Source: Pedinophyceae sp. YPF-701 (taxonomy: Eukaryota; Chlorophyta; Pedinophyceae). From it: 64,000 bases of DNA. The first letter of the stretch is position 1; each line of letters opens with the position of its first letter. Positions 19,224 to 63,113 of this stretch are shown here, piece by piece. Under the pieces are notes generated by a model. That model saw only the letters and a program-made list of their open reading frames with translations, was not told the origin of the DNA and did not search any database. The position numbers and the translations under genes were made by a program. Location of the stretch: positions 124,001 to 188,000 of the forward strand of contig CAJZHL010000020.1 in the NCBI GenBank assembly GCA_916048055.1. Reading direction: 5' to 3'.

Positions 19224-21301
19224 TCACAGGTAGAACCCCATCATGCCTTCGAGAAGCGGGGTTCGAGGATCCCTCCACTTATACACCTCCCCCTGACACG
19301 AAGGCGTGCCTTCAGGGACGCTGAGCTTCGTGTCCCGCACGTCCCACGTGTGCAGCCGCGCGATCGCGCCGGCATCCAACACACCCCCCAGCGCTTCGCA
19401 CCCTCGCACGAGCAGCTCCTCCACCGCCGTCGCGCCCTGTGGCAGGGCTCTCAGGCTGCTGCCGCTGGCGTGGAGGACCCGCAGCTTGCCGGCGCTCGAG
19501 CCCGGGAGCACGCACTCCTCGTCGAGCTGGTCGCACTTGACGATGTGCAGCACCTCGAGCGCCGCCATGTTTCCGGGCAGCTTTCGTATAGGCGACCTCT
19601 TCGCGCTCAAACCGCGCAGCGCCGTGGCGCTGGACTCCGGCAGGAAGCCCTCCCCAGCGAGCCGCTCGCAGCTGTCGACGCGCAGGTACTCCAGCGCCTC
19701 CATGTTGTCCGGGAGCCGGCGCATGGAGCACTGCGTAGCACGTAGAAAGCGCAGCCGGGTCCCGCTTGATTCGGGCAGCCATCCGTCCGGATCGAGCTGC
19801 TCGCAATGGCACACGCTGAGGATCTCGAGCGCCTCCATGTGTGCCGGGAGTCGCTCGATCGCCGTGCTGTCCGCGAGGAGCACCCGCAGCCGTCCCGCCG
19901 ACGAGACCGGCAGCCACTCCGTGGGTGCGAGCTCCGGGCAGTAGCTCACGCTGAGCCACTCGAGGTCGGCCATGCCCTCGGGCAGGCCCCGGAGGGTGCT
20001 GTGGTCGGCGACGATGTTCCGGACGCGGGCGGCGCTCGACGGCGGAAGCAACGGCAAAGGCTCGTCCGAAGTGTCATCGAATACGCACTCGCGAATCATC
20101 AGAGACTCGAGGGCCTCCATGCCAGCGGGGAGCGAGTCGCAGCGGCCCTCGATGAGCAGCGTCTTGAGCTTCCGAACGCTCGACTCCGGCAAACGCATGG
20201 CGGCGTCACCCAGGTTTGATATCTGGAGGTGCTCGAGCGCCGTCAAGTCCTCCGGGAGCGCCCGAAGCACGGTGGCGAAGGCGTTGAGCACGCGCAGGCT
20301 GCCGCGGCAGCTGCGCGGCAGGAAGTCCTCGTCCAGCTCGGTGCCGCCTAATGGATCTAGCGCTCGCGCCATAGCACACAGGGAGATGTCTAGCTCCCGC
20401 AGCGCTGTCAGGCCGTCGGGGATCCGCGTGAGGTCGGTGTTGGCGACGCCGAGGACCTTGATGCTCGGCGCCACGCTCGCCGGCAGCCAGTTTTCGCCCC
20501 ACCGCTGCGCGATTTTGCACCCATACAGGTAGAGGTGTTCTAGCTTGGTCATGTCCGGCGTGACGGGCAGCTTGCGCCACTCGCAGCTCGCGCGAAGCTG
20601 CACGATGCGCCCCGCGTCCTGCTCGTCCGCCCCGACCTCCCGCACTACGTGCCACACCGCGGATTGGTCCGGCGACGACAGCGGCAGCCAGCCGATGCGT
20701 GCAGTGGCGCGATTCTCGACCACGCGCCGCAGCTTCCGGTACAGCTCCTGGCTCACGTCGGCCTGGTACGTGGTCCACGTCACGCCCTCGCAGCCCTCGA
20801 GCACCGCCGCCATCATCGTCAAGCACGTCGCCGCCAGCGCAGTCCGCTCGCCGGGCGACAGCCTGCGCACGATCTCCCCGCGTGGCAGCTGGCGAACAAC
20901 TTGCACGAACAGACACTCCGCCTCGTGCTGCGGGTCCTCGAGCTCTGATCCACGGCCCCTGCAAGTAGTGTCGCGCACGGCGATCGGGGGCAATTCACGC
21001 TGCAGCCCAGCCGCATCGCACGAGCCGCACTGTGCAGGACGTGCAGCGTGCCGCTCACCTCGAAGCAGGATGCCCCCGGTCGCTCGGCCGCCCGCGATCG
21101 TCCTCCTGCACAGACGCATCGCAGACAAATCCGGGGGTGTGGAGGGTGCGTGACGACGAAAACTGAAAAACACAGCTCCGGTGCGCTTCTACTGCGCTTT
21201 GTCGCGTCGCGTCGTGGCGGGCCGCGACCGCGCCCACGGGCTCTCACCTCCATGTCTCCGTGTGTCCTTTCCGGCGTTGCCGGGCCAGACGGTCCTCGCA
21301 T
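19224..21301 (-). CDS. F-box-like/LRR protein, array member A (divergent edge member)
   Basis: Exons 21248-21301, 21059-21105 and 19224-20958 join in phases 0 and 2 for 611 residues. Exon 1 (MRGPSGPATPERTHGDME) has the same 18-codon length as in other members, and exon 2 keeps the D-RGRPSD core. The F-box-like segment is at about 58-90 (QLPRGEIVRRLSPGERTALA). Leucine-rich modules follow to the C terminus, alternating LxxLxVxxCxxLxxDxWLPxSS with LRVLxAxxSxxxxLPxxM. It is clearly the most diverged member in sequence and has its own C-terminal tail ending GMMGFYL. Its intron lengths (142 and 100 bp) and upstream block match the family, so it supports the exon model independently. Probable role, from architecture only: substrate-recognition subunit of an SCF ubiquitin ligase. 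Confidence 0.75.
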
Positions 21302-22125
21302 GTCTCTCTCTCGCTGATTGGTCCGCTGCGGAATGTCCTAGACGGGACGTGCGTCGCTCTGTCGGGCCTGGAGGTGGTCGCTGAAGCCCCCTACGGAGAT
21401 GTGCAAAGACTGGGGGGCACCTTATGGGGCTTGCGAACTGTGCCGTTCAAACACGATATGTCGTGTGACGTCTGGTGGCTGGCTATCTCACCGTCGTGTC
21501 CAGCGCCCCCAAGTCGCTGTTGCACGTCCTCTGCGGCCCCTGAGAAGCAACCCGAAGCAGCGGCGCCCTTGGCGCGTTACACGTGCCGGAGGCGCGTTCA
21601 TGCGTCCTATCAGGGACCTTGTGGCGCACCTTGATACTGGGTTAACGCGCCGGGATGCTCTGAAACACGCCCTCGTCGCTGCAGCCACGCGGCGCGGGCG
21701 TCTCCCTGCCAGGCACTCAACCTTGTTCCGGCACCGCGGTGCGTGGCGGTTCGGTCCGTATGCGCACGCAGTATCGCGAAGCAGTCCACGGTGCGCCAAA
21801 GGCGGCCGTCATCGACGGCGTCAGGCCCGTTCGAGGACCCCGGGGAGTTGAGTAGCAGGGTTGGGGGGAGTGAGGAGCATGTGTCAGGGGCGTTTGGCAG
21901 CGTAGCCCCGGGTGAGCAGAGACCGATCCTGCGACTTACAGGGGCTGTGGTGCAGCGCGCCGGCGGGCTGCGGTGTGCAGCCGCACATGTGGGCGCGCAT
22001 GCTACCACGGGACGCCAAGTGACGACCTGCGGTGGACGTGGCCTGCGGCCGCTTCGTCGCCCTGCGCTGGCCCGGCGGCTGGCTCCGTGGCTGCGCTTTC
22101 GGCGAGCGTAGAGGTTCATCCGGCG
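21302..22125. other. Spacer A-B
   Basis: Contains the family's conserved upstream block at about 21483-21570, some 180 bp from the start of member A. The rest resembles the I-J spacer (45196-46002), including a GT-rich stretch near 21850-21900. It lacks the TTGTTGACACAAT motif that other spacers carry downstream of the genes. Confidence 0.6.
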
Positions 22126-24006
22126 CTACCACCACCACCTTGGTATCCCGCCGAACAATGCCATACCGCCTGGCAGCCGCAGCCTGCTTCCCCGCACGTC
22201 CCACCCCTTCAGCCGCGCGGTCATGTGCGGGTCCATGTCATCGTCGAGCAGCTCGCACCCGCTCACGTCAAGCTCCTCGAGTGCCGCAAGGCCCCGGGGC
22301 AGCTTTCGCAGTGCACTGTAGCATGCGTGGAGCGCCCGCAGGTGCGCAGCGCTCGACGGCGGTAGGAAGTCCTCGTCCAGCTGCTCGCAATGGTCGATGC
22401 GCAGCTCCTCGAGCGCCCCCATGCCCGGCGGCAGCCTCACCAGATTGCTGGACCCAGCGCTCAACACGCGAATGTGTCCCGCGCTCGACGCTGGCAGGAA
22501 GTCCTCGTCCACCTGACATTCACGGACAAACAGCTGCTCCAGCGCCGGCATGTTCTCCGGGATGCGCGTGATCGAGCTGGAGGTCGCTCGAATCAACCGC
22601 AGCCTCTTGCGGGATGATGCAGGCAGCCAACCGTCCACGTGGAGATCATGGCAATACGACACGTCCAGCTCCTCCAGCGCCGACATATTGTCCGGCACAC
22701 TCAGCAGCCTTGTGCGGAAGGCGTTCAAGCTGCGCAGTCTTCCCCGGCTGCTCTCCGGCAGCCAACCGTCCACGTCCAGGTTCTCGCAACCGCGCACTTC
22801 CAGCGTCTCAAGCGCCACCATGCCCGCGGGAAGCCTCTCCACCGGGGAAGCACTGAGTATCAGTCTGCACAGCCTCGACACACTCGAGCAGGGCAGGAAG
22901 GAGTCGGGGGCCAAGTTGCGGCAGGAGTCCAAGTGCAGCTCTTCGAGTGTCATCATGTCCTCCGGCACCTTTCGAACCGAGGTGCCGTACGCGTGGAGTA
23001 CTCGCAGCCTCGCGCAGCTCGTCGCCGGCAGCCATTCGTCGGGGTCGAGTTGCCTGCAAGACCCCACGCTGAGCTTTTGCAGCTCAATCATGCCCGGCGG
23101 AACGCTCTGCACGTCGGAGGACAGCATGCGCAGCTCCCTGATCCCCGCCGCGACGTTCCTCGGAAGCCACTTCTTGCCACAACCGCGGATCGCGAGATGT
23201 TCACGCTTCACGCGGATGCCCAGGCTTCGCAGGCCCGTCATGTCCGGCGTGATCGACACGAAGCCCGCTGTGAAAGACTGCGGGCCGATGCGCTCGATGC
23301 AGCTCGCATCCAGCGCGTCCCCGCCCGCCCTCCGGTGGTACAGCATGCCAGTGCTGGGTTCAGGCCACCCCACGAGTCCCCTGCAGTGACGCGGCACCTT
23401 CCCCCGCAGCTTGCCGTGCACCTGCTGGCCCGTGTGTTTGCGTCTCGCGGTCCAAACCGCGTTCTCGCAGCCCTCCAGCACCGCCGCCATCGACGTCGAC
23501 GACGCAGCCGCCAACGCGGCGCGGTCGCGGTGCGGGAGCTTGCCGACGATCACGCCGCAGGGCAGCTGACGGATGGTCCGCGCAATCACGCACTCGTCCT
23601 CCAGCCCGTCGTCACGCCCCCTGCACGTGATCTCACGCACAATGCAATGGCGTTGGACTGAACGCGGCTCGCGCCGTAGCCAGGCCGGGTCGGACGAGCA
23701 GCGCCATGCACAGACACGCCAGCACGGTGCTCACCTCGGCCCACCGCCAGCGCGCACCCCGTCGCTCGGTCGCCCGCCATCATCCTGCGCAGCGATGCGC
23801 ACAACAGGGTCGCGGGATCAGAACAGAACGCGACGAGAGCCGCACGCAGCTCCGCTGTGCCCCCTGTCCCCACGGCTCGCCGGCCGCGGTCGCGCCACCG
23901 TGCGTGCCTCGCGGCGTGACGGGCAACGTTGGGCACAGCAATGGGCTCGCACCTGCGCGCCCGCGTCGGAGAGCTCCGGCGTCTCCGTGCGCGACGTGTT
24001 CGGCAC
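22126..24006 (-). CDS. F-box-like/LRR protein, array member B (inferred start codon is GTG)
   Basis: Exons 23953-24006, 23735-23784 and 22126-23620 join in phase for 532 residues. The exon-1 frame reads xPNTSRTETPELSDAGAQ, but the first codon is GTG where the paralogues have ATG. The near-identical member J has ATG at the same place. The F-box-like segment reads QLPCGVIVGKLPHRDRAALA. The LRR modules are intact, and the C terminus ends LPGGMALFGGIPRWWW, as in J. Either translation starts elsewhere or uses GTG, or this copy is an early-stage pseudogene with an otherwise open frame. Confidence 0.6.
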
Positions 24007-25107: not shown

Positions 25108-26960
25108 TCACGATCTGAATCCTTCAGGCAGGCGCAGGTTGCTCCCCGACACCTCCCACGCCTTCAGCCGCGCAGCCGCATCCGCGTCCATGTCCTCGTC
25201 GAGCAGCTCGCACTCCCTCACGTCCAGCTCCTCCAGTGCCGCAAGACCCCGGGGCAGCTTTCGCAGTGCACTTCCCCATGCGAGTAGCTCCCGCAGCCTC
25301 GCCGCGCTCGACGGTGGCAGGAAGTCCTCGTCCAGGTGCTCGCAACGGTTGATGCGCAGCTCCTCGAGCGCCCGCATGCCGGGCGGCAGCCTCGCCAGAG
25401 AGCTGGCCGCAGCGCTCAACACGCGAATGTGTCCCGCGCTCGATGCAGGCAGGAAGTCCTCGACCAACGGACATTCGCACACAGACAGCTGCTCCAGCGC
25501 CGGCATGTTCTCCGGGATGCGCGTGATCGAGGTGCCGGACGCATCAATCACCCGCAGCCTCTTGCAGGATGATGCAGGCAGCCAACCGTCCACGGGGAGA
25601 TTATGGCAATTCGACACGTCCAGCTCCTCCAGCGCCGGCATCTTGTCGGGCACACTCAGTAGGCTTGTGAAGCTCGCGTTCAAGCTGCGCAGTCTCGCCC
25701 TGCTGCTCTCCGGCAGCCAACCGTCCACGTCCAGCCTCTCGCACGCGACCACATTTAGCGTCTCAAGCGCCACCATGCCAGCGGGCAGCCTCTCCAACCT
25801 CGTGTAGCTGAGGTTCAGCTCGCGCAGCCTCGACACACTCGAGCAGGGCAGGAAGGAGTCGGGGGCCAAGTTGGGGCAGCCGTGCAATCGCAGCGTCTCC
25901 AGGGCCGTCATGCCATCGGGAACCTTCCGAACCGAGCTGCAGTGCGCGTGGAGTACTCGCAGCTCCGTGCAGCTCGTCGTCGGCAGCCACTCGTCGGGGT
26001 CAAGATGCCAGCAACTGCTCACGTCAAGATCAGCCAGCTCCGCCATCCCCGGCGGAACGCTCTGCACGTCGGAGTGGCCCATCTTCAGCTCCCTGATCCC
26101 CGCCGCGACGTGCTTCGGGAGCCAGCTCTCGCCACAAGCGAGGGTCGCGAGATGTTCACGCCTCACGCAGATGCCCAGGCGTCGCAGGCCCGTCATGTCC
26201 GGCGTGATCGACACGAAGCCCGCTACCATCTCAGGCAGCGGGCCGATGCGCACGATGCAGCTCGCATCCAGTGCGTCCCCGCCCGCGCGCCGGTGGTACA
26301 CCATGCCAGTAACAGGCTTGGGCCACCCCACGAGCGCCGTGGCATGACGCGGCATCTTCCCCCGCAGCTTACCGTACACCTGCTGGCCCGTGCAATCGAG
26401 TCTCGCGATCCAGCGCGTGTTCTCGCACCCCTCCAGCACCGCCGCCATCATCGTCGAGCACGTCGCCGCCAGCGCAGCCCGCTCCCCGGGCGACAGCCTG
26501 CGGACGATCTCCCCGCATGGCAGCTGACGGACAGTCCGCGCAAGCACACACTCGTCCTCCAGCCCGACGTCACGCCCCCTGCACGTGATCTCACGCACAA
26601 TGCAACGGCGTTGGACTGTTGAACGAGGCTCGGGCCGTAGCCAGGCCGGGTCGGACGAGCAGCGCCGTACACAGACGCGCAGCACGGTGCTCACCTCGAC
26701 GCACCGCCAGCGCGCACCCCGTCGCTCGGTCGCCCGCCATCATCCTGCACAGCGATACACACAACAGGGTCGCGGGCATCAGTACAGCGCGCGACGAGAG
26801 CCGCACGCAGCTCCACTGTGCCCCACGGCTCGCCGGCCGCGGTCGCGCCACCGTGCGTGCTTCGCGGCGTGACGGGCAACGTTGGGGCACAGCAATGGGC
26901 TCGCACCTGCGCGCCCGCGTTGGAGTGCTCCGGCGTCTCCGCGCGCGACGTATTCGGCAT
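25108..26960 (-). CDS. F-box-like/LRR protein, array member C
   Basis: Exons 26907-26960, 26695-26744 and 25108-26578 join in phases 0 and 2 for 524 residues. Exon 1 is MPNTSRAETPEHSNAGAQ; exon 2 is DDGGRPSDGVRAGGAS plus a split Arg. The F-box-like segment spans about 53-85 (QLPCGEIVRRLSPGERAALA). A conserved region of about 65 residues follows (DASCIVRIGP, then FVSITPDMTGLRRL). About seven two-part LRR modules come next. It ends SGSNLRLPEGFRS. It is nearly identical to H and O apart from a tract around codons for LPASSAGHIRVLS, marking a local exchange with another member. Predicted soluble; no signal peptide or membrane segment. Confidence 0.75.
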
Positions 26961-28103: not shown

Positions 28104-29972
28104 TTAGAAGTCCCCGCCGCGGCATGCCATACCGGCTGGCAGGAGAAGCCTGCTGCCCCCCACGTCCCACTCCTTCAGCCGCCCGGCCACGCCCGCGTCC
28201 ATAGTCTGATCGAGCAGCCTGCACTCCCTCACGTTCAGCTTCTCCAGTGCCGCAAGGCCCTGGGGCAGCTTTCGCAGTGCACTTTCCCATGCATAGAGCG
28301 CCCGCAGCTGCGCAGCGCTCGACGGCGGGAGGAAGTCCTCGTCCAGCCGCGCACACTGACCGACAAACAGCTCCTCGAGCGCCCGCATGCCCGGCGGAAG
28401 CCTCACCAGGGAGCTGCCTGCAGCGTTCAACACGCGAATGTGGCCCGCGCTCGACGCTGGCAGGAAGTCCTCGGCCAACTGACAGTATCGCACATCCAGC
28501 TGCTCCAGGGCCGGCATGTTCTCCGGGATCCGGGTGACCGAGCTGCACGGCGCTTCAATCACCCGCAGCCTGTCGCAGAATGACGTCGGCAGCCAGTCGT
28601 CGCCACCCAGCGCTTTGCAGCCACAGAGCCTCAGCTCCTCCAGCGCCGGCATGTTGTCGGGCACCCGCCGCAGCCTTGTGTGGGTGGCGTCCAAGCTGCG
28701 CAGTCCCGCCCGGCTGCTCTCCGGCAGCCAACCGTCCACGTCCAGCCTGTCGCACGCGACCACATTTAGCGTCTCAAGCGCCACCATGCCCGCGGGAAGC
28801 GTCGTCACCGCGCAGTCGTTGAGGTTCAGCTCGCGCAGCCTCGACACCCTCGAGCAGGGCAGGAAGGAGTCGGGAGCCAACTTGTGGCAGCCGGTCAATC
28901 GCAGCTCTTCGAGTGCCATCATGTTCTCCGGCAGCCTCCGAACCGAGCTGCGGAGCGCCTTGAGTACTCGCAGCTTCGCGCGGCTTGTCGCCGGCAGCCA
29001 TTCGTCGGGGTCGAGTTGCCAGCAACTGCTCACGTCAAGATCAGCCAGCTCCACCATCCCCGGCGGAACGCTCTGCACGTCGGACTGGCGAATCTTCAGC
29101 TCCCTGATCCCCGCCGCGACGTGCTTCGGAAGCCAGTCCTCGCCACAAGCCAGGGTCGCGAGATGTTCACGCTCCACGCAGATGCCCAGGCTTCGCAGGC
29201 CCGTCATGTCCGGCGTGATCGACACGAAGCCCTCTCTCCACTCACGCAGCGGGCCGATGCGCTCGATGCAGCTCGCATCCAGTGCGTCCCCGCCCGCGCG
29301 CCGGTGGTACACCATGCCAGTGCTGGGTTCAGGCCACCCCACGAGCGCCGTGGCATGACGCGGCACCTGCCCCCGCAGCTTGCCGTGCACCTGCACGCCG
29401 ACATCTTCGCGTGTCGCAGTCCAGCACGCTGTCTCGCACCCCTCCAGCACCGCTGCCATCGACGTCGACGACGCAGCGGCCAACGCGGCGCGGTCGTCGT
29501 GCGACAGCCTGTTGACGATCTCCCCGCAGGACAGCTGACGGACGGTCCGCGCAAGCACACACTCGTCCTCCAGCCCGACGTCACGCCCCCTGCAAGTGAT
29601 GGTGCACACAGCAACACCAAAGATCTCGTGCACGGGGCCGTGGTGTTCCGGGTCGTGGCCGGGCCGCGCCGGACGAGCAGCAGGCAGACATAGTCGGCGC
29701 GCCACTCACCTCGGCCCACCGCCAGCGCGCACCCCGTCGCTCGGTCGCCCGCCATCATCCTGCGCAGCGGTACACAAAACGGGTCGCAGGGATCAGCGCC
29801 GTGCGCGACGAGCGCCCCACGCAGCTCCGCTATGGTCCCCGTTCCCACGGCTCGCTGACCGCGGTCGCGCCACCGTGCGTGCTTCGCGGCGTGACGAGCA
29901 ACGTTGGGCACAGCAATGGGCTCGCACCTGCGCGCCCGCGTTGGAGGGCTCCGCGCGCGACGTGTTCGGCAT
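28104..29972 (-). CDS. F-box-like/LRR protein, array member D
   Basis: Exons 29928-29972, 29710-29759 and 28104-29589 join in phase for 526 residues. Exon 1 is 9 nt shorter than usual (MPNTSRAEPSNAGAQ), an in-frame deletion shared only with K. Its second intron belongs to a different sequence lineage (shared with I and K), yet both splice sites and the phase are kept. The F-box-like segment reads QLSCGEIVNRLSHDDRAALA. LRR modules follow, and it ends LPAGMACRGGDF. The duplicated 20.9-kb segment begins inside its second intron. Confidence 0.75.
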
Positions 29973-31074: not shown

Positions 31075-33214
31075 TCACGATCCGAATCCTTCAGGCAGGC
31101 GCAGGTTGCTGCCCGACACCTCCCACGTCTGCAGGCGCGCGGCCACGTCCGGGTCCATGTCCTCGTCGAGCAGCCAGCACCCGCTCACGTCCAGATCCTC
31201 CAGTGCCGCAAGGCCCCGGGGCAGCCTTCGCAGTGCACTTTCGCGTGCGTGGAGCGCCCGCAGCTGCGCAGCGCTGGACGGTGGCAGGAAGTCCTCGTCC
31301 AGCTGCTCGCAACGGTCGACCCACAGCTCTTGGAGCGCCCCCATGCCGGGCGGCAGCCTCACCAGATTGCTGGACCAAGCGCTCAACACGCGAATGTGGC
31401 CCGCGCTCGACGGCGGCAGGAAGTCCTCGTCCAGCTGCTTGCAACGGTCGGCCCACAGCTCCTCGAGCGCCCCCATGCCCGGCGGCAGCATCACCAGCGA
31501 GCTATGGTGAGCGCGGAGGCTGCGAACGCGGCCCGCGCTGGATGCGGGCAAGAAGTCCTGGGTCAGCCGACAAACCGTGACGTTCAGGCTCTCCAGTGCC
31601 GGCATGTCCTTCGGGATGGTGCAGATCGAGCTGGCGGACACGTTGAGCACCCGCAATGATTCGCGGCAGCAGCGCGGTAGCCAGTCGCCACGATCCCAGA
31701 GCAGGGCGCATCCATGGAGCGACAGTACCTCCAGCGCCGGCATGCTGTCCGGTATCCGCCTTAGATTTGTGGAGGAGGCGTCCAACCAGTGCAGGCTCGC
31801 CCTGCTGCTCTCCGGCAGCCAACCGTCCACGTCCAGGTTCGAGCACCCGCCCACATTAAGCGTCTCCAGCGCCACCATGCCCGCAGGCAGCTTCTGCACC
31901 GGGGTGCCGGCGACATACAGCTGGCGCAACTTCGCCCTGCTGGTCTCCGGCAGGAAGTCGTCTGCAGCGAGCTGACTGCAATCGAACAAATACAGTTCCT
32001 CCAGCGCCGCCATGCCCGCAGGGAGCCTCGTCACCGGCGTATGGTTGAGCACCAGTTTGCGCAGCCTCGACGCGCTCGAGCAGGGCAGGCAGGAGTCGGG
32101 GGCCAAGTTGACGCAGCGGCCCAGATCCAGCTCTTCCAGGGGCATGCCCTCGGGCAACCGCCGAACCGAGCTGTCAGACGCCTTGAGTTCTCGCACTCTC
32201 GCGCAGCTCGTCGCCGGCAGCCACTCGTCGGGGTCGAGGTCCGTGCAGTGTGACACGTAAAGGTGCTGCAGCGATGCCATGCCCGCCGGGACGCCGCGGA
32301 CATCGCTGTTATCAATGGCCAGCAGACCGATGCCCGCCGCAACATTCGCGGGAAGCCAGCTCTCGTCTGAGTCGCAGTCTCCCCCTCGACGGCTCACGCA
32401 CATCTGCAAGAGTAGAAGCCCTGTCATGTCCGGCGTGATGGGCAGGAACCCTCGCTGCTCGTCCCCGGGTAGCCAAACCGACCCAATGCACTCGATGCAG
32501 CTCGCATCCTGCGGGTCTCCGCCGGGCCGCCTGCGGCACAGCAGCGGCGTGCTGCCGCCTTCATGCCATGCCACGAGCGACCTGACGTGACGTGGCACCT
32601 TGCCCTGAAGCTTGCCAAGGACCTGGGCTCCGATCTCTGCGCACGAGGCAGTCCAGCACGCTGCGTCGAAGCCCTCCAGCACCGCCGCCATCAGCGTCGA
32701 CGACGCAGCGGCCAACGCGGTGCGGTCGCGGAGCGGCAGCCTGCGGGCGATCTCTCCCCCGGGCAGCTGGCACATCGTCTGCGCAAGCGGACACTCGTCC
32801 TCCAGCCCAACTCGACGGCCCCTGCACGTGATCATGCACAGAGTGATGCTACGGCTCTCGTCGCGGTGAGTGTGACCCTGCAGACCCGTTGTGGCCGTGT
32901 TTGGCGAGCTGCACCAGGCAGAGACATCAAGCGGGGCCCTCACCTCGCCGCAGCGCCAGCGCGCACCCCGTCGCTCGGTCGCCCGCCATCATCATGATCC
33001 TGCACAGATACACACACAACAGGATCGCGGCGATCAGTACAGCGCGAGACGAGGGCCGCACACGGCTCCCCTGTACCACGGGGTCGCTGGCCTCGGTCGC
33101 GTCACCATGCGTGCTTCGCTCCGAGACGGGCGCGACGACGAAGGCACAGCAGTTGGCTACCTGGGCGCCCGCGTCGAAGTGCTCCGGGGTCTCCGCGCCC
33201 GACGACTTCCGCAT
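31075..33214 (-). CDS. F-box-like/LRR protein, array member E (long form)
   Basis: Exons 33161-33214, 32944-32999 and 31075-32821 join in phase for 618 residues. Exon 1 is the most diverged of the ATG-bearing set (MRKSSGAETPEHFDAGAQ) but keeps its length. Exon 2 is 56 nt, with an in-frame 6-nt expansion (DHDDGGRPSD). The F-box-like segment reads QLPGGEIARRLPLRDRTALA. The extra length over other members is about two additional LRR modules in the middle and C-terminal half. It ends LRLPEGFGS. Its copy L, 20,901 bp away, encodes the same protein. Confidence 0.75.
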
Positions 33215-34323: not shown

Positions 34324-36249
34324 TTAGCCATACACCCATCCCGGGATGGGGCATAGTACCCCGCCGCGGCATGCCATACCGCCTGGCAGCCCCAGCATCG
34401 TGCCCCCCACGTTCCATGCCTTCAGCCGCGCGGCCGCGTCCGCGTCCATGTGGTCGTCGAGCAGCTTGCACTCCCTCACGTCCAGCTCCTCCAGTGCCGC
34501 AAGGCCCCGGGGCAGCTTACGCAGCGCACTACCCCATGCGTGGAGCCTCCGCAGCTGCGCAGTGCTCGACAGCGGTAGGAAGTCCTCCTCGTGCAGCCGC
34601 TTGCACCAGTGGATACACAGCTCCTCGAGCGCCCCCATGCCCGGCGGAAGCCTGACCAGAGAGCTGTCCGTGGCGCGCAACACGCGTATGTGCCCCGCGC
34701 TCGACGCAGGCAGGAAGTCCTCGACCAACTGCCGACAGCCACGCACATCCAGCTGATCCAGCGCTCGCATGTTCTCCGGAATGCGCCTGATCGAGCTGTG
34801 CTGCGCTTCGATCACCCGCAGCCTGGCGCATGATGACGTCGGCAGCCAGTCGTCGCCACCCAGCGCTTGGCAGCCAATGAGCCTCAGCCCCTCCAGCGCC
34901 GGCATCTTGTCGGGCGTCCGCCGCAGCTCGGTCAAGCTCGCGTCCAAGCTGCGCAGTCGCGCCCGGCTGCTCTCCGGCAGCCAACCGGCCGCGTCCAGGT
35001 CCTCGCAATCGCGCACTTCCAGCACCTCAAGCGCCACCATGCCCGCGGGAAGCGTCGTCAACGCGCAGTCGTTGAGTGTCAGTTTGCGCAGCCTCGACGC
35101 AATCGAGCAGGGCAGGAAGGAGTCGGGGGCCAAGTTGACGCAGCCGTCCAAGTGCAGCTCTTCGAGTGCCATCATGTCCTCCGGCACCTTTCGAACCGAG
35201 CTGCGTCCCGCGTTGAGTACTCGCAGCCTCGCGCAGCTCGTGGCCGGCAGCCACTCGTCGGGGTCGAGGTCCGTGCAACCGGTAACGTCAAGATCAGCCA
35301 GCTCCGCCATCCTCGGTGGAACGCGCTGCACGTCGGAGGTGCCCATCTTCAGCTCCCTGATGCCCGCCGCGACGTGCTTCGGAAGCCAGTCCTCGCCACA
35401 AGCGAGGGTCGCGAGATGTTTACGCTCCACGCGGATGTGCAGCCTTCGCAGGCCTGTCATGTCCGGCGTGATCGACACGAAGCCCGCCGTCAACCCAGAC
35501 TGCAGGCCAATGCGCTCGATGCAGCTCGCATCCAGCGCGTCCCCGCCCGCGCGCCCGTGGTACGTCATGACAATGCTGCGGTGCGCGCCAGGAACATGCT
35601 CCAGCCACCCCACGAGCGCCGTGGCATGACGCGGCATCTTCCGCCGCAGCTTCCCGTGCACCTGCACGCCGACGTCTTCGCGCGTTGCAGTCCAGCGCGC
35701 TGTCTCGCACCCCTCCAGCACCGCCGCCATCGACGTCGACGACGCAGCGGCCAACGCGGCGCGGTTGCGGTGCGGCAGCCTGCGGACGATCTCCCCGCAG
35801 GGCAGCTCGCGAATGACATGCGCAAGCACACACTCGTCCTCCGGCTCGACGTCACCCCCCCTGCACGTGATCTCACGCACAATGCAACGGACTGTTGAAC
35901 GAGGCTCAGACCGTACCCAGGCCGGGTCGGACGAGCAGCGCCGTACACAGACGCGCAGCACGGTGCTCACCTCGGCTCACCGCCAGCGTTCACCCCGTCG
36001 CTCGGTCGCCCGCCATCATCCTGCACAGCGATACACACAACAGGGTCGCGGGGATCAGTACAGCGCGCGACGAGGGCCGCACGCAGCTCCGCTATGCCCC
36101 CCCGTCCCCACGACTCGCCGGCCGCTGTCGCGCCACCGTGCGTGCTTCGCGGCGTGACGGGCAACGTTGGGGGGGGCACAGCAATGGGCTCGCACCTGCG
36201 CGCCCGCGTCGGAGAGCTCCGGCGTCTCCGCGCGCGACCTGTTCGGCAT
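34324..36249 (-). CDS. F-box-like/LRR protein, array member F
   Basis: Exons 36196-36249, 35971-36020 and 34324-35860 join in phase for 546 residues. Exon 1 is MPNRSRAETPELSDAGAQ. In exon 2, the alternative frame starting with tandem ATGs hits TGA, which supports the frame used here (DDGGRPSDGVNAGGEP). The F-box-like segment reads ELPCGEIVRRLPHRNRAALA. The post-F-box region has an insertion (VPGAHRSIVMTYH) shared with K and M. The C terminus has a unique tail, CPIPGWVYG. Copy M differs by a single residue (Ala to Glu in that insertion). Confidence 0.75.
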
Positions 36250-48998: not shown

Positions 48999-50873
48999 TC
49001 ACGATCTGAATCCTTCAGGCAGGCGCAGGTTGCTCCCCGACACCTCCCACTCCTTCAGCCGCGCGGCCACGTCCGGGTCCATGTCGTCGTCGAGCAGCTC
49101 GCACTCCCTCACGTCTAGCTCCTCCAGTGCCGCAAGGCCCCGGGGCAGCTTTTGCAGTGCACTGTAGCATGCGCAGAGCGCCCGCAGCTGCGCAGCGCTG
49201 GACGGCGGGAGGAAGCCCTCGTGCAGCCGCGCACACTCGTCGGCCCACAGCTCTTCGAGCGCCCGCATGCCGGGCGGCAGCCTCACCAGAGAGCTGCGCC
49301 CAGCGTCGAGCTTGCGTATGTGTCCCACGCTCGACGCAGGCAAGAAGTCCTCGACCAACTGCGGACAGTCTCGAACAGACAGCTGCTCCAGCGCTCGCAT
49401 GTTCTCCGGGATCCGGGTGACCGAGCTGCGCGACGCTTCGATCACCCGCAGCCTGGCGCAGGATGACGTCGGCAGCCAATTCTCGCCACCCAGCGCTTGG
49501 CAGCCACAGAGCCTCAGCTCCTCCAGCGCCGGCATATTGTCGGGCACCCGCCGCAGCCTTGTGCGGGAGGCGCCCAAGCTGCGCAGTCTCGCCCTGCTGC
49601 TCTCCGGCAGCCAACCGTCCACGTTCAGGTTCGGGCACCAGCCCACTTCCAGCGTCTCAAGCGCCACCATGCCAGCGGGCAGCCTCGCCACCGAGGAGCT
49701 GGTGAGTGTCAGTGTGCGCAGCCTCGACACGCTCGAGCAGGGCAGGAAGGAGTCGGGGGCCAACTTGCGGCAGCCGTCCAAGTGCAGCTCTTCAAGTGCC
49801 ATCATGTCCTCCGGCAGCCTCCGAGCCCGGCTGTGGGCCGCGTTGAGTACTCGCAGCTTCGCGCAGCTCGTCGCCGGCAGCCATTCGTCGGGGTCGAGAT
49901 TTGAGCAATTAGACACGTCAAGATCAGCCAGCTCCGCCATCCCCGGCGGAACGCTCTGCACGTTGGAGTGGCGAAGCTTCAGCTCCCTGATCCCCGCCGC
50001 GACGTGCTTCGGGAGCCAGTCCTCGCCACAAGCCAGGGTCGCGAGATGTTCACGCCTCACGCAGGTACTCAGGCTTCGCAGGCCTGTCATGTCCGGCGTG
50101 ATCGACACGAAGCCCGCCATCCCCCCAGACTGCGGGCCGATGCGCTCGATGCAGCTCGCATCCCGTGCGTCCCCGCCCGCGCGCCGGTGGTACGTCATGA
50201 CAAAGCTCCAGTGCTCGCCAGGAACATGCTCCAGCCACCCCACGAGCCCCCTGCAGTGTCGCGGCATCTTCCGCCGCAGCTTACCGTGCACCTGCACGCC
50301 AATATTCTCGCATGTTGCAGTCCAGCACGCTGTCTCGCACCCCTCCAGCACCGCCGCCATCGTCGTCGACGACGCAGCGGCAAACGAGGCGCGGTCGCGG
50401 CGCCACAGCCTGTTGACGATCTCCCCGCATGGCAGCTGACGGACAGTCCGCGCAAGCACGCACTCGTCCTCCAGCCCGACGTCACGCCCCCTGCACGCGA
50501 TGGTGCACACAGCAACACCAAAGATCTCGTGCACGGGGCCGTGGTGTTCCGGGTCGTGGCGGGGCCGCGCCGGACGAGCAGCAGGCAGACATAGTCGGCG
50601 CGCCACTCACCTCGGCCCACCGCCAGCGCGCACCCCGTCGCTCGGTCGCCCGCCATCATCCTGCGCAGCGGTACACAAAACGGGTCGCAGGGATCAGCGC
50701 CGTGCGCGACGAGCGCCCCACGCAGCTCCGCTATGGTCCCCGTTCCCACGGCTCGCTGACCGCGGTCGCGCCACCGTGCGTGCTTCGCGGCGTGACGAGC
50801 AACGTTGGGCACAGCAATGGGCTCGCACCTGCGCGCCCGCGTTGGAGGGCTCCGCGCGCGACGTGTTCGGCAT
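48999..50873 (-). CDS. F-box-like/LRR protein, array member K
   Basis: Exons 50829-50873, 50611-50660 and 48999-50490 join in phase for 528 residues. It shares with D the shortened exon 1 (MPNTSRAEPSNAGAQ), exon 2 and the upstream region. The LRR exon is different: the F-box-like segment reads QLPCGEIVNRLWRRDRASFA, the post-F-box insertion (VPGEHWSFVMTYH) resembles F, central modules resemble I, and the end matches C/H. It is a mosaic whose left half lies outside the young duplication and right half inside it. Confidence 0.75.
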
Positions 50874-51975: not shown

Positions 51976-54115
51976 TCACGATCCGAATCCTTCAGGCAGG
52001 CGCAGGTTGCTGCCCGACACCTCCCACGTCTGCAGGCGCGCGGCCACGTCCGGGTCCATGTCCTCGTCGAGCAGCCAGCACCCGCTCACGTCCAGATCCT
52101 CCAGTGCCGCAAGGCCCCGGGGCAGCCTTCGCAGTGCACTTTCGCGTGCGTGGAGCGCCCGCAGCTGCGCAGCGCTGGACGGTGGCAGGAAGTCCTCGTC
52201 CAGCTGCTCGCAACGGTCGACCCACAGCTCTTGGAGCGCCCCCATGCCGGGCGGCAGCCTCACCAGATTGCTGGACCAAGCGCTCAACACGCGAATGTGG
52301 CCCGCGCTCGACGGCGGCAGGAAGTCCTCGTCCAGCTGCTTGCAACGGTCGGCCCACAGCTCCTCGAGCGCCCCCATGCCCGGCGGCAGCATCACCAGCG
52401 AGCTATGGTGAGCGCGGAGGCTGCGAACGCGGCCCGCGCTGGATGCGGGCAAGAAGTCCTGGGTCAGCCGACAAACCGTGACGTTCAGGCTCTCCAGTGC
52501 CGGCATGTCCTTCGGGATGGTGCAGATCGAGCTGGCGGACACGTTGAGCACCCGCAATGATTCGCGGCAGCAGCGCGGTAGCCAGTCGCCACGATCCCAG
52601 AGCAGGGCGCATCCATGGAGCGACAGTACCTCCAGCGCCGGCATGCTGTCCGGTATCCGCCTTAGATTTGTGGAGGAGGCGTCCAACCAGTGCAGGCTCG
52701 CCCTGCTGCTCTCCGGCAGCCAACCGTCCACGTCCAGGTTCGAGCACCCGCCCACATTAAGCGTCTCCAGCGCCACCATGCCCGCAGGCAGCTTCTGCAC
52801 CGGGGTGCCGGCGACATACAGCTGGCGCAACTTCGCCCTGCTGGTCTCCGGCAGGAAGTCGTCTGCAGCGAGCTGACTGCAATCGAACAAATACAGTTCC
52901 TCCAGCGCCGCCATGCCCGCAGGGAGCCTCGTCACCGGCGTATGGTTGAGCACCAGTTTGCGCAGCCTCGACGCGCTCGAGCAGGGCAGGCAGGAGTCGG
53001 GGGCCAAGTTGACGCAGCGGCCCAGATCCAGCTCTTCCAGGGGCATGCCCTCGGGCAACCGCCGAACCGAGCTGTCAGACGCCTTGAGTTCTCGCACTCT
53101 CGCGCAGCTCGTCGCCGGCAGCCACTCGTCGGGGTCGAGGTCCGTGCAGTGTGACACGTAAAGGTGCTGCAGCGATGCCATGCCCGCCGGGACGCCGCGG
53201 ACATCGCTGTTATCAATGGCCAGCAGACCGATGCCCGCCGCAACATTCGCGGGAAGCCAGCTCTCGTCTGAGTCGCAGTCTCCCCCTCGACGGCTCACGC
53301 ACATCTGCAAGAGTAGAAGCCCTGTCATGTCCGGCGTGATGGGCAGGAACCCTCGCTGCTCGTCCCCGGGTAGCCAAACCGACCCAATGCACTCGATGCA
53401 GCTCGCATCCTGCGGGTCTCCGCCGGGCCGCCTGCGGCACAGCAGCGGCGTGCTGCCGCCTTCATGCCATGCCACGAGCGACCTGACGTGACGTGGCACC
53501 TTGCCCTGAAGCTTGCCAAGGACCTGGGCTCCGATCTCTGCGCACGAGGCAGTCCAGCACGCTGCGTCGAAGCCCTCCAGCACCGCCGCCATCAGCGTCG
53601 ACGACGCAGCGGCCAACGCGGTGCGGTCGCGGAGCGGCAGCCTGCGGGCGATCTCTCCCCCGGGCAGCTGGCACATCGTCTGCGCAAGCGGACACTCGTC
53701 CTCCAGCCCAACTCGACGGCCCCTGCACGTGATCATGCACAGAGTGATGCTACGGCTCTCGTCGCGGTGAGTGTGACCCTGCAGACCCGTTGTGGCCGTG
53801 TTTGGCGAGCTGCACCAGGCAGAGACATCAAGCGGGGCCCTCACCTCGCCGCAGCGCCAGCGCGCACCCCGTCGCTCGGTCGCCCGCCATCATCATGATC
53901 CTGCACAGATACACACACAACAGGATCGCGGCGATCAGTACAGCGCGAGACGAGGGCCGCACACGGCTCCCCTGTACCACGGGGTCGCTGGCCTCGGTCG
54001 CGTCACCATGCGTGCTTCGCTCCGAGACGGGCGCGACGACGAAGGCACAGCAGTTGGCTACCTGGGCGCCCGCGTCGAAGTGCTCCGGGGTCTCCGCGCC
54101 CGACGACTTCCGCAT
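51976..54115 (-). CDS. F-box-like/LRR protein, array member L (copy of E)
   Basis: Exons 54062-54115, 53845-53900 and 51976-53722 join in phase for 618 residues. The predicted protein appears identical to E, including the variant exon 1, the expanded exon 2 and the extra LRR modules. Being identical to E, it adds copy number but no new specificity. Confidence 0.75.
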
Positions 54116-55224: not shown

Positions 55225-57150
55225 TTAGCCATACACCCATCCCGGGATGGGGCATAGTACCCCGCCGCGGCATGCCATACCGCCTGGCAGCCCCAGCATC
55301 GTGCCCCCCACGTTCCATGCCTTCAGCCGCGCGGCCGCGTCCGCGTCCATGTGGTCGTCGAGCAGCTTGCACTCCCTCACGTCCAGCTCCTCCAGTGCCG
55401 CAAGGCCCCGGGGCAGCTTACGCAGCGCACTACCCCATGCGTGGAGCCTCCGCAGCTGCGCAGTGCTCGACAGCGGTAGGAAGTCCTCCTCGTGCAGCCG
55501 CTTGCACCAGTGGATACACAGCTCCTCGAGCGCCCCCATGCCCGGCGGAAGCCTGACCAGAGAGCTGTCCGTGGCGCGCAACACGCGTATGTGCCCCGCG
55601 CTCGACGCAGGCAGGAAGTCCTCGACCAACTGCCGACAGCCACGCACATCCAGCTGATCCAGCGCTCGCATGTTCTCCGGAATGCGCCTGATCGAGCTGT
55701 GCTGCGCTTCGATCACCCGCAGCCTGGCGCATGATGACGTCGGCAGCCAGTCGTCGCCACCCAGCGCTTGGCAGCCAATGAGCCTCAGCCCCTCCAGCGC
55801 CGGCATCTTGTCGGGCGTCCGCCGCAGCTCGGTCAAGCTCGCGTCCAAGCTGCGCAGTCGCGCCCGGCTGCTCTCCGGCAGCCAACCGGCCGCGTCCAGG
55901 TCCTCGCAATCGCGCACTTCCAGCACCTCAAGCGCCACCATGCCCGCGGGAAGCGTCGTCAACGCGCAGTCGTTGAGTGTCAGTTTGCGCAGCCTCGACG
56001 CAATCGAGCAGGGCAGGAAGGAGTCGGGGGCCAAGTTGACGCAGCCGTCCAAGTGCAGCTCTTCGAGTGCCATCATGTCCTCCGGCACCTTTCGAACCGA
56101 GCTGCGTCCCGCGTTGAGTACTCGCAGCCTCGCGCAGCTCGTGGCCGGCAGCCACTCGTCGGGGTCGAGGTCCGTGCAACCGGTAACGTCAAGATCAGCC
56201 AGCTCCGCCATCCTCGGTGGAACGCGCTGCACGTCGGAGGTGCCCATCTTCAGCTCCCTGATGCCCGCCGCGACGTGCTTCGGAAGCCAGTCCTCGCCAC
56301 AAGCGAGGGTCGCGAGATGTTTACGCTCCACGCGGATGTGCAGCCTTCGCAGGCCTGTCATGTCCGGCGTGATCGACACGAAGCCCGCCGTCAACCCAGA
56401 CTGCAGGCCAATGCGCTCGATGCAGCTCGCATCCAGCGCGTCCCCGCCCGCGCGCCCGTGGTACGTCATGACAATGCTGCGGTGCTCGCCAGGAACATGC
56501 TCCAGCCACCCCACGAGCGCCGTGGCATGACGCGGCATCTTCCGCCGCAGCTTCCCGTGCACCTGCACGCCGACGTCTTCGCGCGTTGCAGTCCAGCGCG
56601 CTGTCTCGCACCCCTCCAGCACCGCCGCCATCGACGTCGACGACGCAGCGGCCAACGCGGCGCGGTTGCGGTGCGGCAGCCTGCGGACGATCTCCCCGCA
56701 GGGCAGCTCGCGAATGACATGCGCAAGCACACACTCGTCCTCCGGCTCGACGTCACCCCCCCTGCACGTGATCTCACGCACAATGCAACGGACTGTTGAA
56801 CGAGGCTCAGACCGTACCCAGGCCGGGTCGGACGAGCAGCGCCGTACACAGACGCGCAGCACGGTGCTCACCTCGGCTCACCGCCAGCGTTCACCCCGTC
56901 GCTCGGTCGCCCGCCATCATCCTGCACAGCGATACACACAACAGGGTCGCGGGGATCAGTACAGCGCGCGACGAGGGCCGCACGCAGCTCCGCTATGCCC
57001 CCCCGTCCCCACGACTCGCCGGCCGCTGTCGCGCCACCGTGCGTGCTTCGCGGCGTGACGGGCAACGTTGGGGGGGGCACAGCAATGGGCTCGCACCTGC
57101 GCGCCCGCGTCGGAGAGCTCCGGCGTCTCCGCGCGCGACCTGTTCGGCAT
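55225..57150 (-). CDS. F-box-like/LRR protein, array member M (copy of F)
   Basis: Exons 57097-57150, 56872-56921 and 55225-56761 join in phase for 546 residues. It differs from F by Glu for Ala in VPGEHRSIVM; the Glu form is also found in K, so it may be ancestral or reflect exchange. Same C-terminal tail CPIPGWVYG. Confidence 0.75.
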
Positions 57151-58237: not shown

Positions 58238-60134
58238 TCATATGAGCATCTGAATCTTTCCGCGAGACCGCGACGATTTTCCGGGTAGGCGCAGGTCGCT
58301 CCCCGACACGTCCCACGCCTTCAGCCGCGCGGCCACGTGCGGGTCCATATCGTCGTCGAGCAGCTCGCACTCCCTCACGTCGAGCTCCTCGAGTGCCGCA
58401 AGACCCCGGGGGAGCTTTTGCAGCGCACTCCTACGAGCGTGTAGCGCCCGCAGCCGCCCTGCGCTCGACAGCGGTAGGAAGCCCTCCTCGCGCAGCCGCT
58501 TGCACCCGTTGATACACAGCTCCTCGAGCGCTCGCATGCCGGGCGGCAGCCTCACCAGGGAGCTGTTCGCAGCGTTCAACACGCGAATGTGGCCCGCGCT
58601 CGACGCAGGCAGAAAGTCCTCGACCAACTGCGGACAGTGTCGCACAGACAGCTGTTCCAGCGCTCGCATGTTCTCCGGGATGCGGGTGACCGAGCTGCGC
58701 GACGCTTCGATCACCCGCAGCCTGGCGCATGATGATGACGTGGGCAGCCAGTGCTCGCCATGCAGCGCTTGGCAGCCAGGGAGCCTCAGCTCCTCCAGCG
58801 CCGGCATCTCATCGGGCACCCGCCGCAGCCTTGTGAAGGCGGCGTTCAAGCTGCGCAGTCTCCCCCTGCTGCTCTCCGGCAGCCAACCGTCCACGTCCAG
58901 GTTCGGGCACCAGCCCACATCCAGCGTCTCAAGCACCGCCATGCCCGCGGGAAGCGTCGTCACCGCGCAGCCGTTGAGTGTCAGTGTGCGCAGCCTCGAC
59001 ACGCTCGAGCAGGGCAGGAAGGAGTCGGGGGGCAAGTTGACGCAGGTGTCCAAGCGCAGCTCTTCGAGTGCCATCATGTCCTCCGGCAGCCTGCGAACCC
59101 GGCTGTGTCCCGCGTTGAGCACTCGCAGCCTCGCGCAGCTTGTCGCCGGCAGCCATTCGTCGGGGTCGAGTTGCCTGCAATACCTCACGCTGAGCTTTTG
59201 CAGCTCAATCATCCCCGGCGGAACGCTCTGCACGTCGGACTGGCCCACGTTAAGATTCTTGATCCGCGCCGCGACGTGCTTCGGAAGCCACCTCTCGCCA
59301 AACGCGAGGGTCGCGAGATGTTTACGCTCAACGCGGATGTGCAGCCTTCGCAGGCCCGTCATGTCCGGCGTGATCGACACGAAGCTCGCTAGCATCCCAG
59401 GCTCCGGGCCGATGTGCTCGATGCAGCTCGCATCCAGCGCGTCCCCGCCCGCGCGCCGGTGGTACACCATGCCAGTGCTGGGAACAGGCCACCCCACGAG
59501 CGCCGTGGCATGACGCGGCATCTTCCGCCGCAGCTTGCCGTGCACCTGCTGGCCGACGCGTTTGCCTCTCGCGGTCCAGCGCGTGTTCTCGCAGCCCTCC
59601 AGCACCGCCGCCATGAACGTCGACGACGCAGCCGCCAGCGCGGCGCGGTCGCGGCGCGGCAGCCTGCGGACGATCTCCCCGCATGGCAGCTGACGGATGG
59701 CCCGCGCGAGCACACACTCGTCCTCCAGCTCGACGTCACGCCCCCTGCACGTGATCTCACGCACAATGCAATGGCGTTGACTGTTGAACGAGGCTCAGAC
59801 CGTAGCCAGGCCGGGTCGGACGAGCAGCGCCATACACAGACACGCAGCACGGTGCTCACCTCGGCCCACCGCCAGCGTTCACCCCGTCGCTCGGTCGCCC
59901 GCCATCATCCTGCGCAGCGACACACACAACAGGGTCGCGGGGATCAGTACAGCGCGCGACGAGAGCCGCACGCAGCTCCGCTGTGCCCCCCCGTCCCCAC
60001 GGGTCGCCGGCCGCTGTCGCGCCACCGTGCGTGCTTCGCGGCGTGACGGGCAACGTTGGGGCACAGCAACGGGCTCGCACCTGCGCGCCCGCGTTGGAGA
60101 GCTCCGGCGTCTCCGCGCGCGACGTATTCGGCAT
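58238..60134 (-). CDS. F-box-like/LRR protein, array member N (converted copy of G)
   Basis: Exons 60081-60134, 59860-59909 and 58238-59744 join in phase for 536 residues. The N-terminal half and C-terminal tail match G. Between about 58380 and 58895 the LRR codons differ (for example HGEHWLPTSSSCARL and CINGCKRLREEGFLPLSS) and resemble modules of I and K, adding 6 nt overall. A second small tract near 59553 changes GKHTGQQ to GKRVGQQ. Frame and splice sites are intact. Confidence 0.75.
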
Positions 60135-61260: not shown

Positions 61261-63113
61261 TCACGATCTGAATCCTTCAGGCAGGCGCAGGTTGCTCCCC
61301 GACACCTCCCACGCCTTCAGGCGCGCGGCCGCGTCCGGGTCCATGTCCTCGTCGAGCAGCTCGCACTCCCTCACGTCCAGATCCTCCAGTGCCGCAAGAC
61401 CCCGGGGCAGCTTTCGCAGTGCACTTCCCCATGCGAGTAGCTCCCGCAGCCTCGCCGCGCTCGACGGTGGCAGGAAGTCCTCGTCCAGGTGCTCGCAACG
61501 GTTGACCCACAGCTCCTCGAGCGCCCGCATGCCCGGCGGCAGCCTCGCCAGAGAGCTGCCCTCAGCGCGCAACACACGTATACGGCCCGCGCTCGATGCA
61601 GGCAGAAAGTCCTCGTCCACCGGACATTCGCACACAGACAGCTGCTCCAGCGCCGGCATGTTCTCCGGGATGCGCGTGATCGAGGTGCAGGACGCATCAA
61701 TCACCCGCAGCCTCTTGCAGGATGATGCAGGCAGCCAACCGTCCACGGGGAGATTATGGCAATTCGACACGTCCAGCTCCTCCAGCGCCGGCATGTTGTC
61801 CGGCACACTCAGTAGGCTTGTGAAGGCGGCGTTCAAGCTGCGCAGTCTCCCCCTGCTGCTCTCCGGCAGCCAACCGTCCACGTCCAGCTTCTCGCAACCG
61901 CGCACTTCCAGCGCCTCAAGCGCCACCATGCCAGCGGGCAGCCTCTCCACCCTCGTGTAGCTGAGGTTCAGCTCGCGCAGCCTCGACGCGCTCGAGCAGG
62001 GCAGGAAGGAGTCGGGGGCCAAGTTGGGGCACCCGTGCAATCGCAGCGTCTCCAGGGCCGTCATGCCATCGGGAACCTTCCGAACCGAGCTGCAGTGCGC
62101 GTGGAGTACTCGCAGCTCCGTGCAGCTCGTCGTCGGCAGCCACTCGTCGGGGTCAAGATGCCAGCAACTGCTCACGTCAAGATCAGCCAGCTCCGCCATC
62201 CCCGGCGGAACGCTCTGCACGTCGGACTGGCCCATCTTCAGCTCCCTGATGCCCGCCGCGACGTGCTTCGGGAGCCAGCTCTCGCCACAAGCCAGGGTCG
62301 CGAGATGTTCACGCCTCACGCAGATGCCCAGGCGTCGCAGGCCCGTCATGTCCGGCGTGATCGACACGAAGCCCGCTACCATCTCAGGCAGCGGGCCGAT
62401 GCGCACGATGCAGCTCGCATCCCGTGCGTCCCCGCCCGCGCGCCGGTGGTACACCATGCCAGTAACAGGCTTGGGCCACCCCACGAGCGCCGTGGCATGA
62501 CGCGGCATCTTCCCCCGCAGCTTGCCGTACACCTGCTGGCCCGTGCAATCGAGTCTCGCGATCCAGCGCGTGTTCTCGCAGCCCTCCAGCACCGCCGCCA
62601 TCATCGTCGAGCACGTTGCCGCCAGCGCAGCCCGCTCCCCGGGCGACAGCCTGCGGACGATCTCCCCGCATGGCAGCTGACGGACAGTCCGCGCAAGCAC
62701 ACACTCGTCCTCCAGCCCGACGTCACGCCCCCTGCACGTGATCTCACGCACAATGCAACGGCGTTGGACTGTTGAACGAGGCTCAGACCGTACCCAGGCC
62801 GGGTCGGACGAGCAGCGCCGTACACAGACGCGCAGCACGGTGCTCACCTCGACGCACCGCCAGCGCGCACCCCGTCGCTCGGTCGCCCGCCATCATCCTG
62901 CACAGCGATACACACAACAGGGTCGCGGGCATCAGTACAGCGCGCGACGAGGGCCGCACGCAGCTCCACTGTGCCCCACGGCTCGCCGGCCGCGGTCGCG
63001 CCACCGTGCGTGCTTTGCGGCGTGACGGGCAACGTTGGCACACAGCAATGGGCTCGCACCTGCGCGCCCGCGTTGGAGTGCTCCGGCGTCTCCGCGCGCG
63101 ACGTATTCGGCAT
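61261..63113 (-). CDS. F-box-like/LRR protein, array member O (copy of H)
   Basis: Exons 63060-63113, 62848-62897 and 61261-62731 join in phase for 524 residues. It differs from H by NLPVDGWLP for NLHVDGWLP, making it like C at that position, and by a few silent or spacer changes. It is the last complete member in the window. Confidence 0.75.

Follow-up and report, generated by a model that had tools for sequence, protein, structure and literature searches.

A tandem array of fast-evolving leucine-rich repeat genes of probable F-box ancestry in the green alga Pedinophyceae sp. YPF-701

The subject of this analysis is a tandem array of 15 genes coding for leucine-rich repeat (LRR) proteins in Pedinophyceae sp. 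YPF-701 (assembly GCA_916048055.1), located within a stretch of 64,000 nucleotides of contig CAJZHL010000020.1 (C20:124001-188000; referred to as the window). At least 82 genes, distributed over at least 16 contigs, make up the family to which the array belongs. The family is genuine, constrained and fast-evolving, and its LRR proteins are in all probability F-box-derived. We favour the reading that they act as receptors; judged from the sequences, this reading has a probability of roughly 0.6. Maximum likelihood (ML) estimates reveal constraint on the LRR scaffold and on the N-terminal region in the window array as well as in a second array on contig C10, and diversifying selection at exposed LRR positions is supported in one of these two arrays, that of C20.

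The genome assembly comprises 27.9 Mb in 32 contigs, and the G+C content is near 0.67 in the array part of the window. Chlorophyll a/b-binding (light-harvesting complex, LHC) proteins of the green type are encoded in the genome, indicating that the organism is a photosynthetic green alga.

Array, gene structure and repeat modules

All 15 genes are located on the minus strand in head-to-tail orientation, about 3 kb apart, and the stops of their open reading frames (ORFs) extend from position 19224 to position 61261. Rechecking of the coordinates recovered 15 of the 15 long ORFs of the one-strand array with approximately 3-kb spacing that a preliminary description of this DNA had proposed; position 63113, which it gave as the end of the array, is the exon-1 ATG of gene 15. 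The other 14 window proteins share 47–100% identity with the protein of gene 8, which, together with the exon structure common to 14 genes, excludes chance resemblance. The tandem run continues beyond the window, with a total of 22 members over C20:143395-206971, of which seven lie right of the window, and an additional family gene is located at 231 kb of the same contig. The second array occupies C10:362.8-418.6 kb. The family size given above is a lower bound, since it is based on scores for 82 of 370 first-look candidates and on the grouping of 150 listed stretches out of 153 matched. Further family places, outside this count, were found on contigs such as C7, C8, C11, C13, C19, C30 and C31 in a search with a distant relative. 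Searches of viral contigs (305 pattern matches) and of genome contigs (35), each using one or two peptide patterns, confirmed no viral or prokaryotic relatives; within the collections covered, the family is apparently lineage-specific.

A common three-exon model, with introns in phases 0 and 2, an intact frame and one terminal stop, fits 14 of the 15 window genes. Exon 1 has 45 or 54 nt and ends with CAG before GT, exon 2 has 50 or 56 nt and is followed by GTGAG, and exon 3, which is the LRR exon, is preceded by TGCAG; these splice patterns were derived from the array sequences themselves. The last exon of these 14 genes is therefore not opened by the GTG starts of their ORFs. The start codon is ATG in 13 of the 14 fitted genes. 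Gene 2 carries GTG at the usual exon-1 ATG site (window position 24006) and may be dead or start elsewhere, and in gene 1 exons 2 and 3 were seen, exon 1 not being found by pattern. The three-exon model is supported by the divergence (K) among copies, which is lower in exon 1 (0.077) and exon 2 (0.051) than in intron 1 (0.115), intron 2 (0.259), the 5' flank (0.162) and the 3' flank (0.278). The LRR code, with a K of 0.204, exceeds intron 1 and the 5' flank. Of 17 ORFs found on C10, 12 read from the start MAPRRRSD into the LRRs without leaving the open frame; this basic protein start would appear nuclear-signal-like. No signal peptide was evident in family proteins upon inspection by eye, not by computation. 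An indel-length test on the DNA alignment gave multiples of three for 57% of coding and 25% of non-coding gap runs, but was not used, because the alignment fragments gaps (8 of 52 in the N-terminal part).

The LRR exon is built from an A module of about 25 residues (LxxLxVxxCxxL...WLPxSS), followed by a B module of about 20 residues (LRxLxAxxSxLxxLPxxMxA). Pattern matches number 5–8 (A) and 6–9 (B) per window gene, and the pair is present in all 15, so that the two-part module of about 45 residues (a Cys-type, then an LP-type LRR) reported in the preliminary description is confirmed. The Pfam families LRR_4 and LRR_14 match 19 of 19 members (E up to 10). An AlphaFold model of gene 8, based on the 15 aligned window proteins, gave predicted local distance difference test (pLDDT) values of mostly 88–97 per block in the LRR part, with strands at about positions 3–5 of the repeats. 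Module number varies: genes 5 and 12 have more modules, and two members of 365 residues beyond the window have lost some. Each protein begins with a short tail, continues with a probable diverged F-box and about 100 intervening residues, and ends with several LRR pairs.

Ancestry of the N-terminal region

The N-terminus of the family is very probably a diverged F-box. This assignment draws on relatives with F-boxes on contig C1, on the register of a family profile, on decoy tests and on profile–profile alignment. In the whole genome, the Pfam F-box model (PF00646; cut-off 20.5 bits) matches 11 places, two of which, both on C1, precede LRRs of the same family. One of them, C1:857645-859057, encodes F-box and LRRs in a single open frame; the F-box scores 25.7 bits (20.7 bits on the whole ORF), and the repeats score 177 bits against the hidden Markov model of the family LRRs. 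The other, its neighbour (about C1:852790-854192), has a Pfam F-box of 27.1 bits, with F-box and LRR in different frames. A third C1 gene, C1:860306-861634, scores 288.6 bits for the LRR family and, for the F-box, 19.9 bits as whole protein and 24.0 bits as fragment, and a gene on C8 shows a weak F-box of 12.8 bits. The segment C1:850501-862200 (L053, L054) holds a small cluster of genes that combine an F-box with LRRs of the array's family.

A profile of the family N-terminus, built without the F-boxes of these relatives, aligns on them in register, with best-domain scores of 16.2, 10.9 and 6.8 bits. The profile was compared on nine F-boxes, 640 decoys and 1800 shuffled sequences. The F-boxes L007 and C1, both on contig C1, scored 15.1 and 11.4 bits, respectively, which none of the decoys and none of the shuffles reached. 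The scores of L003 and L006 were reached by no decoy and by two shuffles each, and that of L008 by one decoy and nine shuffles; for L002 and L005, 13 and 20 of the 640 decoys, respectively, were as good. Alignment of the family N-terminus with the F-boxes by hhalign gave probabilities of 71.5 (19 sequences) and 57.9 (34 sequences); in both cases a single one of 200 shuffles did equally well, its very high score being odd. In the model of gene 8, low-confidence N-terminal helices are placed at residues 11–18, 23–26, 30–49 and 61–74. A sequence search of the PDB found nothing with the N-terminal profile (best E 0.7) or with the F-box fragment of a relative (best E 0.48).

Docking of the diverged F-box on SKP1 is likely, judging from the same comparisons. 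Three SKP1-like places occur in the genome, on contigs C5, C7 and C15. The one on C15 (Skp1 match C15:68335-68475, minus strand) has a plus-strand family gene (C15:63328-65142) some 3 kb away; this nearness may be a coincidence.

Selection and exchange between copies

For C20, dN/dS (the ratio of nonsynonymous to synonymous substitution rates) was estimated from 14 of 23 aligned genes, omitting genes 1, 5, 12, 13 and 15 as well as the four divergent members r21, r22, r23 and c12. Positions 2, 3, 5, 7 and 8 of each LRR were designated as exposed on the basis of the consensus, after reading of the proteins and before the dN/dS run. By counts, dN/dS at these positions was 1.77 (column bootstrap 1.24–2.63, with 0.0015 of the resamples at or below 1; 1.70–1.85 upon leaving out single genes), as compared to 0.59 (0.45–0.77) for the rest of the LRRs and 0.65 for the N-terminus. 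None of 2000 random position sets reached the pN (nonsynonymous differences) of the exposed set. The ML codon model yielded 1.59 for exposed positions (2ΔlnL 7.88 against 1, with kappa held at its free estimate and not refitted), 0.36 for the rest of the LRRs, and 0.34 for the N-terminus.

For C10, 13 genes were used; of the 17 ORFs, 15 have the start motif, and two near-identical ones were dropped. Here too, pN is enriched at the exposed positions: among 2000 random position sets, 4 reach the observed value. For the remaining LRR positions, dN/dS was 0.87 by counts and 0.33 by ML, and for the N-terminus 0.95 and 0.41, respectively. The 2ΔlnL in favour of constraint is 113.9 in C20 and 94.6 in C10 for the remaining LRR positions, and 58.6 and 17.2, respectively, for the N-terminus. 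Over whole genes, the median dN/dS by counts is 0.735 (249 of 253 pairs), and 18 pairs lie above 1.

Copies of the array have exchanged sequence. A summed-run statistic over 213 variable third positions in 12 genes was not reached in any of 1000 permutations, and four-gamete conflict rises from 0.26 up to about 0.4 within approximately 50 codons and then levels off. Two segments of 15.8 kb, offset by 20.9 kb and about 99.9% alike, differ at 12 single sites outside a divergent island. The latter is a tract of 497 bp in the LRR code of gene 7 which differs from its counterpart in gene 14 by 69 substitutions and two 3-bp indels. No near-identical donor of the gene 14 island was found in this genome (best other match 90%), nor a simple donor of the gene 7 island in the window and its right flank (best 89.5%); 60-base windows sampled from both islands were never identical to other copies examined (at most 59 of 60 bases). 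Within each of the two islands, the closest copy changes from one part to another. A similar island in the LRR code of one C10 gene shows 89–95% identity, its flanks being 96–99% identical downstream and 99–100% identical on the other side. The likely cause is gene conversion, presumably with copies or alleles absent from the assembly. Hypermutation is not favoured as source of the island in genes 7 and 14, given a dN/dS of 0.49 between genes 7 and 14 over the LRR exon and a divergence of the LRR code below that of intron 2 and the 3' flank.

Interpretation and relation to known systems

According to the receptor reading, the family proteins would be intracellular, and their diverged F-box would still dock on SKP1, making them putative receptors of an SKP1–cullin–F-box (SCF) ubiquitin ligase. 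The LRR face would bind fast-changing target proteins, most probably viral or other pathogen proteins, and the repertoire would be renewed by duplication, gain and loss of modules, and gene conversion. A more specific version is tentative and may well prove wrong: more than 80 F-box-derived LRR receptors could form an intracellular immune repertoire which marks viral or parasite proteins for destruction, in an alga without a large set of nucleotide-binding LRR (NLR) receptors, and gene conversion with alleles absent from any one genome could renew the binding faces.

A number of results weigh against the favoured reading. The Pfam model detected no F-box in the 10 of 15 window proteins that were scanned whole, in any of 19 family members scanned (nine of them window proteins), or in any of 10 N-terminal fragments. 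In the decoy test, L001 was beaten by 74 and L004 by 417 of the 640 decoys, and these two F-boxes thus were not separated. The structure prediction proposed in the preliminary description, which bears out the LRR modules, places the first 90 residues of gene 8 at low confidence (pLDDT about 35–55). Fast change in C20 also occurs outside the preset positions, namely in the 49 codons that precede the LRRs (1.35 by counts) and at the repeat positions A10, A11, A24, B10 and B19, with dN/dS above 2. At the exposed positions of C10, dN/dS was 0.64 by ML, which is below 1 (2ΔlnL 8.67), and 1.14 (0.82–1.62) by counts. The codon models assume a single tree, which recombination breaks, so that their exact values are soft, and the longest shared run was not unusual, being reached in 79 of 1000 permutations. 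The F-box-like character claimed in the preliminary description is supported by the C1 relatives and the profile tests with decoys, but not by Pfam matches in the members scanned; its suggestion of selection for diversity holds for C20, where exposed positions exceed 1, the rest is constrained and copies recombine, but is borne out more weakly in C10.

The misses by Pfam would also be expected if LRR recognition proteins had arisen from F-box ancestors and lost SKP1 binding, the N-terminus being used otherwise or the proteins acting as decoys or inhibitors. The small C1 group has kept an F-box at the Pfam level that is gone in the members scanned, and the N-terminus is conserved anyway (dN/dS 0.34 in C20, 0.41 in C10) and therefore probably functional. 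However, the hydrophobic pattern of the F-box core and its register are retained, and we consider such a loss unlikely. The high whole-gene dN/dS by counts, and the absence of a clear excess over 1 in C10, might alternatively reflect mostly drift in a tandem family that waxes and wanes with little effect on fitness. This is very improbable in view of the constraint on the N-terminus and the remaining LRR positions in both arrays, the intact frames, exon lengths differing by multiples of three, and the concentration of change at exposed positions.

The missing donor of the gene 14 island bears on two further proposals. If diversity itself were selected, as in a mating-type or self/nonself repertoire, donors could be alleles of other individuals, and fast change at surface positions would be expected as well. 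Self/nonself recognition as the explanation of the family we hold quite unlikely, since the genes are spread over at least 16 contigs rather than forming one tightly linked locus, nothing was found that ties them to mating, and the same signs fit immunity. A donor would also be missing if the duplication and the island were artefacts of assembly, resulting from mixed haplotypes or a false repeat, and arrays of this kind are hard to assemble. That is unlikely, as the copies differ at the 12 single sites outside the island, their neighbours differ, and C10 shows a similar island pattern; moreover, it would affect the island and not the family, because the selection results excluded genes 12, 13 and 15, the near-identical right-hand copies.

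Proteins of the FBXL type, such as SKP2 and TIR1, consist of an F-box followed by LRRs of uniform CC type. The algal proteins, with a probable diverged F-box preceding the LRRs, resemble them, but alternate 25-residue Cys-type and 20-residue LP-type repeats, and Pfam misses the F-box in the members scanned. They differ from NLR immune receptors in that no NB-ARC domain was found by Pfam in the family members scanned. The genome yielded only two NB-ARC matches, in large open frames of 1621 and 1955 amino acids (C2:628633-637725).

The evolutionary pattern resembles that of the large F-box families of Caenorhabditis, for which the portions of the source used here describe tandem expansion, purifying selection on the N-terminal F-box, peaks of dN/dS in the C-terminal, substrate-targeting part, and foreign (viral, bacterial) proteins as targets suggested by the authors (PMC8665587). 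The same portions list LRR-6 among the C-terminal domains of only one or few F-box proteins (PMC8665587); the algal family departs from these families in that its LRRs are of two types, its F-box escapes Pfam, and its host is a green alga. Plant FBK and FBA families, as outlined in excerpts of PMC3719486, likewise expanded in waves, with purifying selection on the F-box and a positively selected interaction domain, similar to the expansion, constrained N-terminus and fast-changing exposed LRR positions observed here; they carry Kelch or FBA domains instead of LRRs, and FBA is represented in green algae by a single protein, in one of six species (PMC3719486). F-box and LRR are combined in a single protein also in the GALA effectors of Ralstonia, bacterial proteins with CC-type GALA-LRRs according to the part of the source consulted (PMC2244805); this likeness to the algal proteins, with their probable diverged F-box, is one of domain composition. 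Shuffled repeats and diversifying selection are features shared with the brown-algal LRR-ROCO candidate immune receptors, in which, by the sections of PMC11378527 considered, each LRR motif has its own exon, exons are shuffled, and ROC-COR domains are present (PMC11378527). In the green alga, in contrast, the LRRs lie in one exon and the exchange resembles gene conversion.

Intracellular recognition of viruses and parasites in single-celled algae is poorly known, and no title in the open-access literature searched describes a large, fast-changing F-box/LRR family in a green alga. The family offers concrete candidates for such recognition. The favoured reading predicts that the N-terminus binds SKP1, that the exposed LRR face binds targets, and that repertoires differ between strains differing in virus resistance.

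Table 1. Family genes and related features of the window (positions within the 64,000 nucleotides)
Feature	Position	Strand	Remarks
Gene 1	19224..21105	-	most divergent; 47% identical to gene 8
Gene 1 exons	exon 2 candidate 21105-21059; exon 3 20958-19224	-	exon 1 not found by pattern
Gene 2	22126..24006	-	exon 1 begins with GTG; fits exon model
Gene 3	25108..26960	-	fits exon model
Gene 4	28104..29972	-	fits exon model
Gene 5	31075..33214	-	additional LRR modules; shares an identical LRR exon with gene 12
Gene 6	34324..36249	-	fits exon model
Gene 7	37337..39227	-	contains island diverged from gene 14
Gene 8	40354..42206	-	reference protein P0001
Gene 9	43326..45195	-	fits exon model
Gene 10	46003..47879	-	fits exon model
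Gene 11	48999..50873	-	fits exon model
Gene 12	51976..54115	-	fits exon model
Gene 13	55225..57150	-	fits exon model
Gene 14	58238..60134	-	fits exon model
Gene 15	61261..63113	-	exon 1 63113-63060; exon 2 62897-62848; exon 3 62731-61261
F-box-like N-terminal region, gene 8	41500..41799	-	100 amino acids, core about first 41; family profile compared with F-boxes of the genome
Left duplication copy	29598..45411		genes 5-9
Right duplication copy	50499..64000		genes 12-15 and one gene past the window end; copy runs beyond the window
Divergent island, gene 7 LRR code	37490..37986	-	497 bp; compared with gene 14
Matching island, gene 14	58391..58893	-	best other genome match 90%

Two apparent giant proteins beside family members on contig C29, with open frames of 3018 and 5602 amino acids, were discarded, because the available sequence consists there of runs of N; a third apparent giant open frame has 3704 amino acids. 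Within the window, a match to Ion_trans/PKD-channel (8663-10774) lies beside a weak ankyrin match (12087-12923) on the minus strand, and the region 8663-12923 perhaps represents a single TRP-like channel gene with ankyrins.

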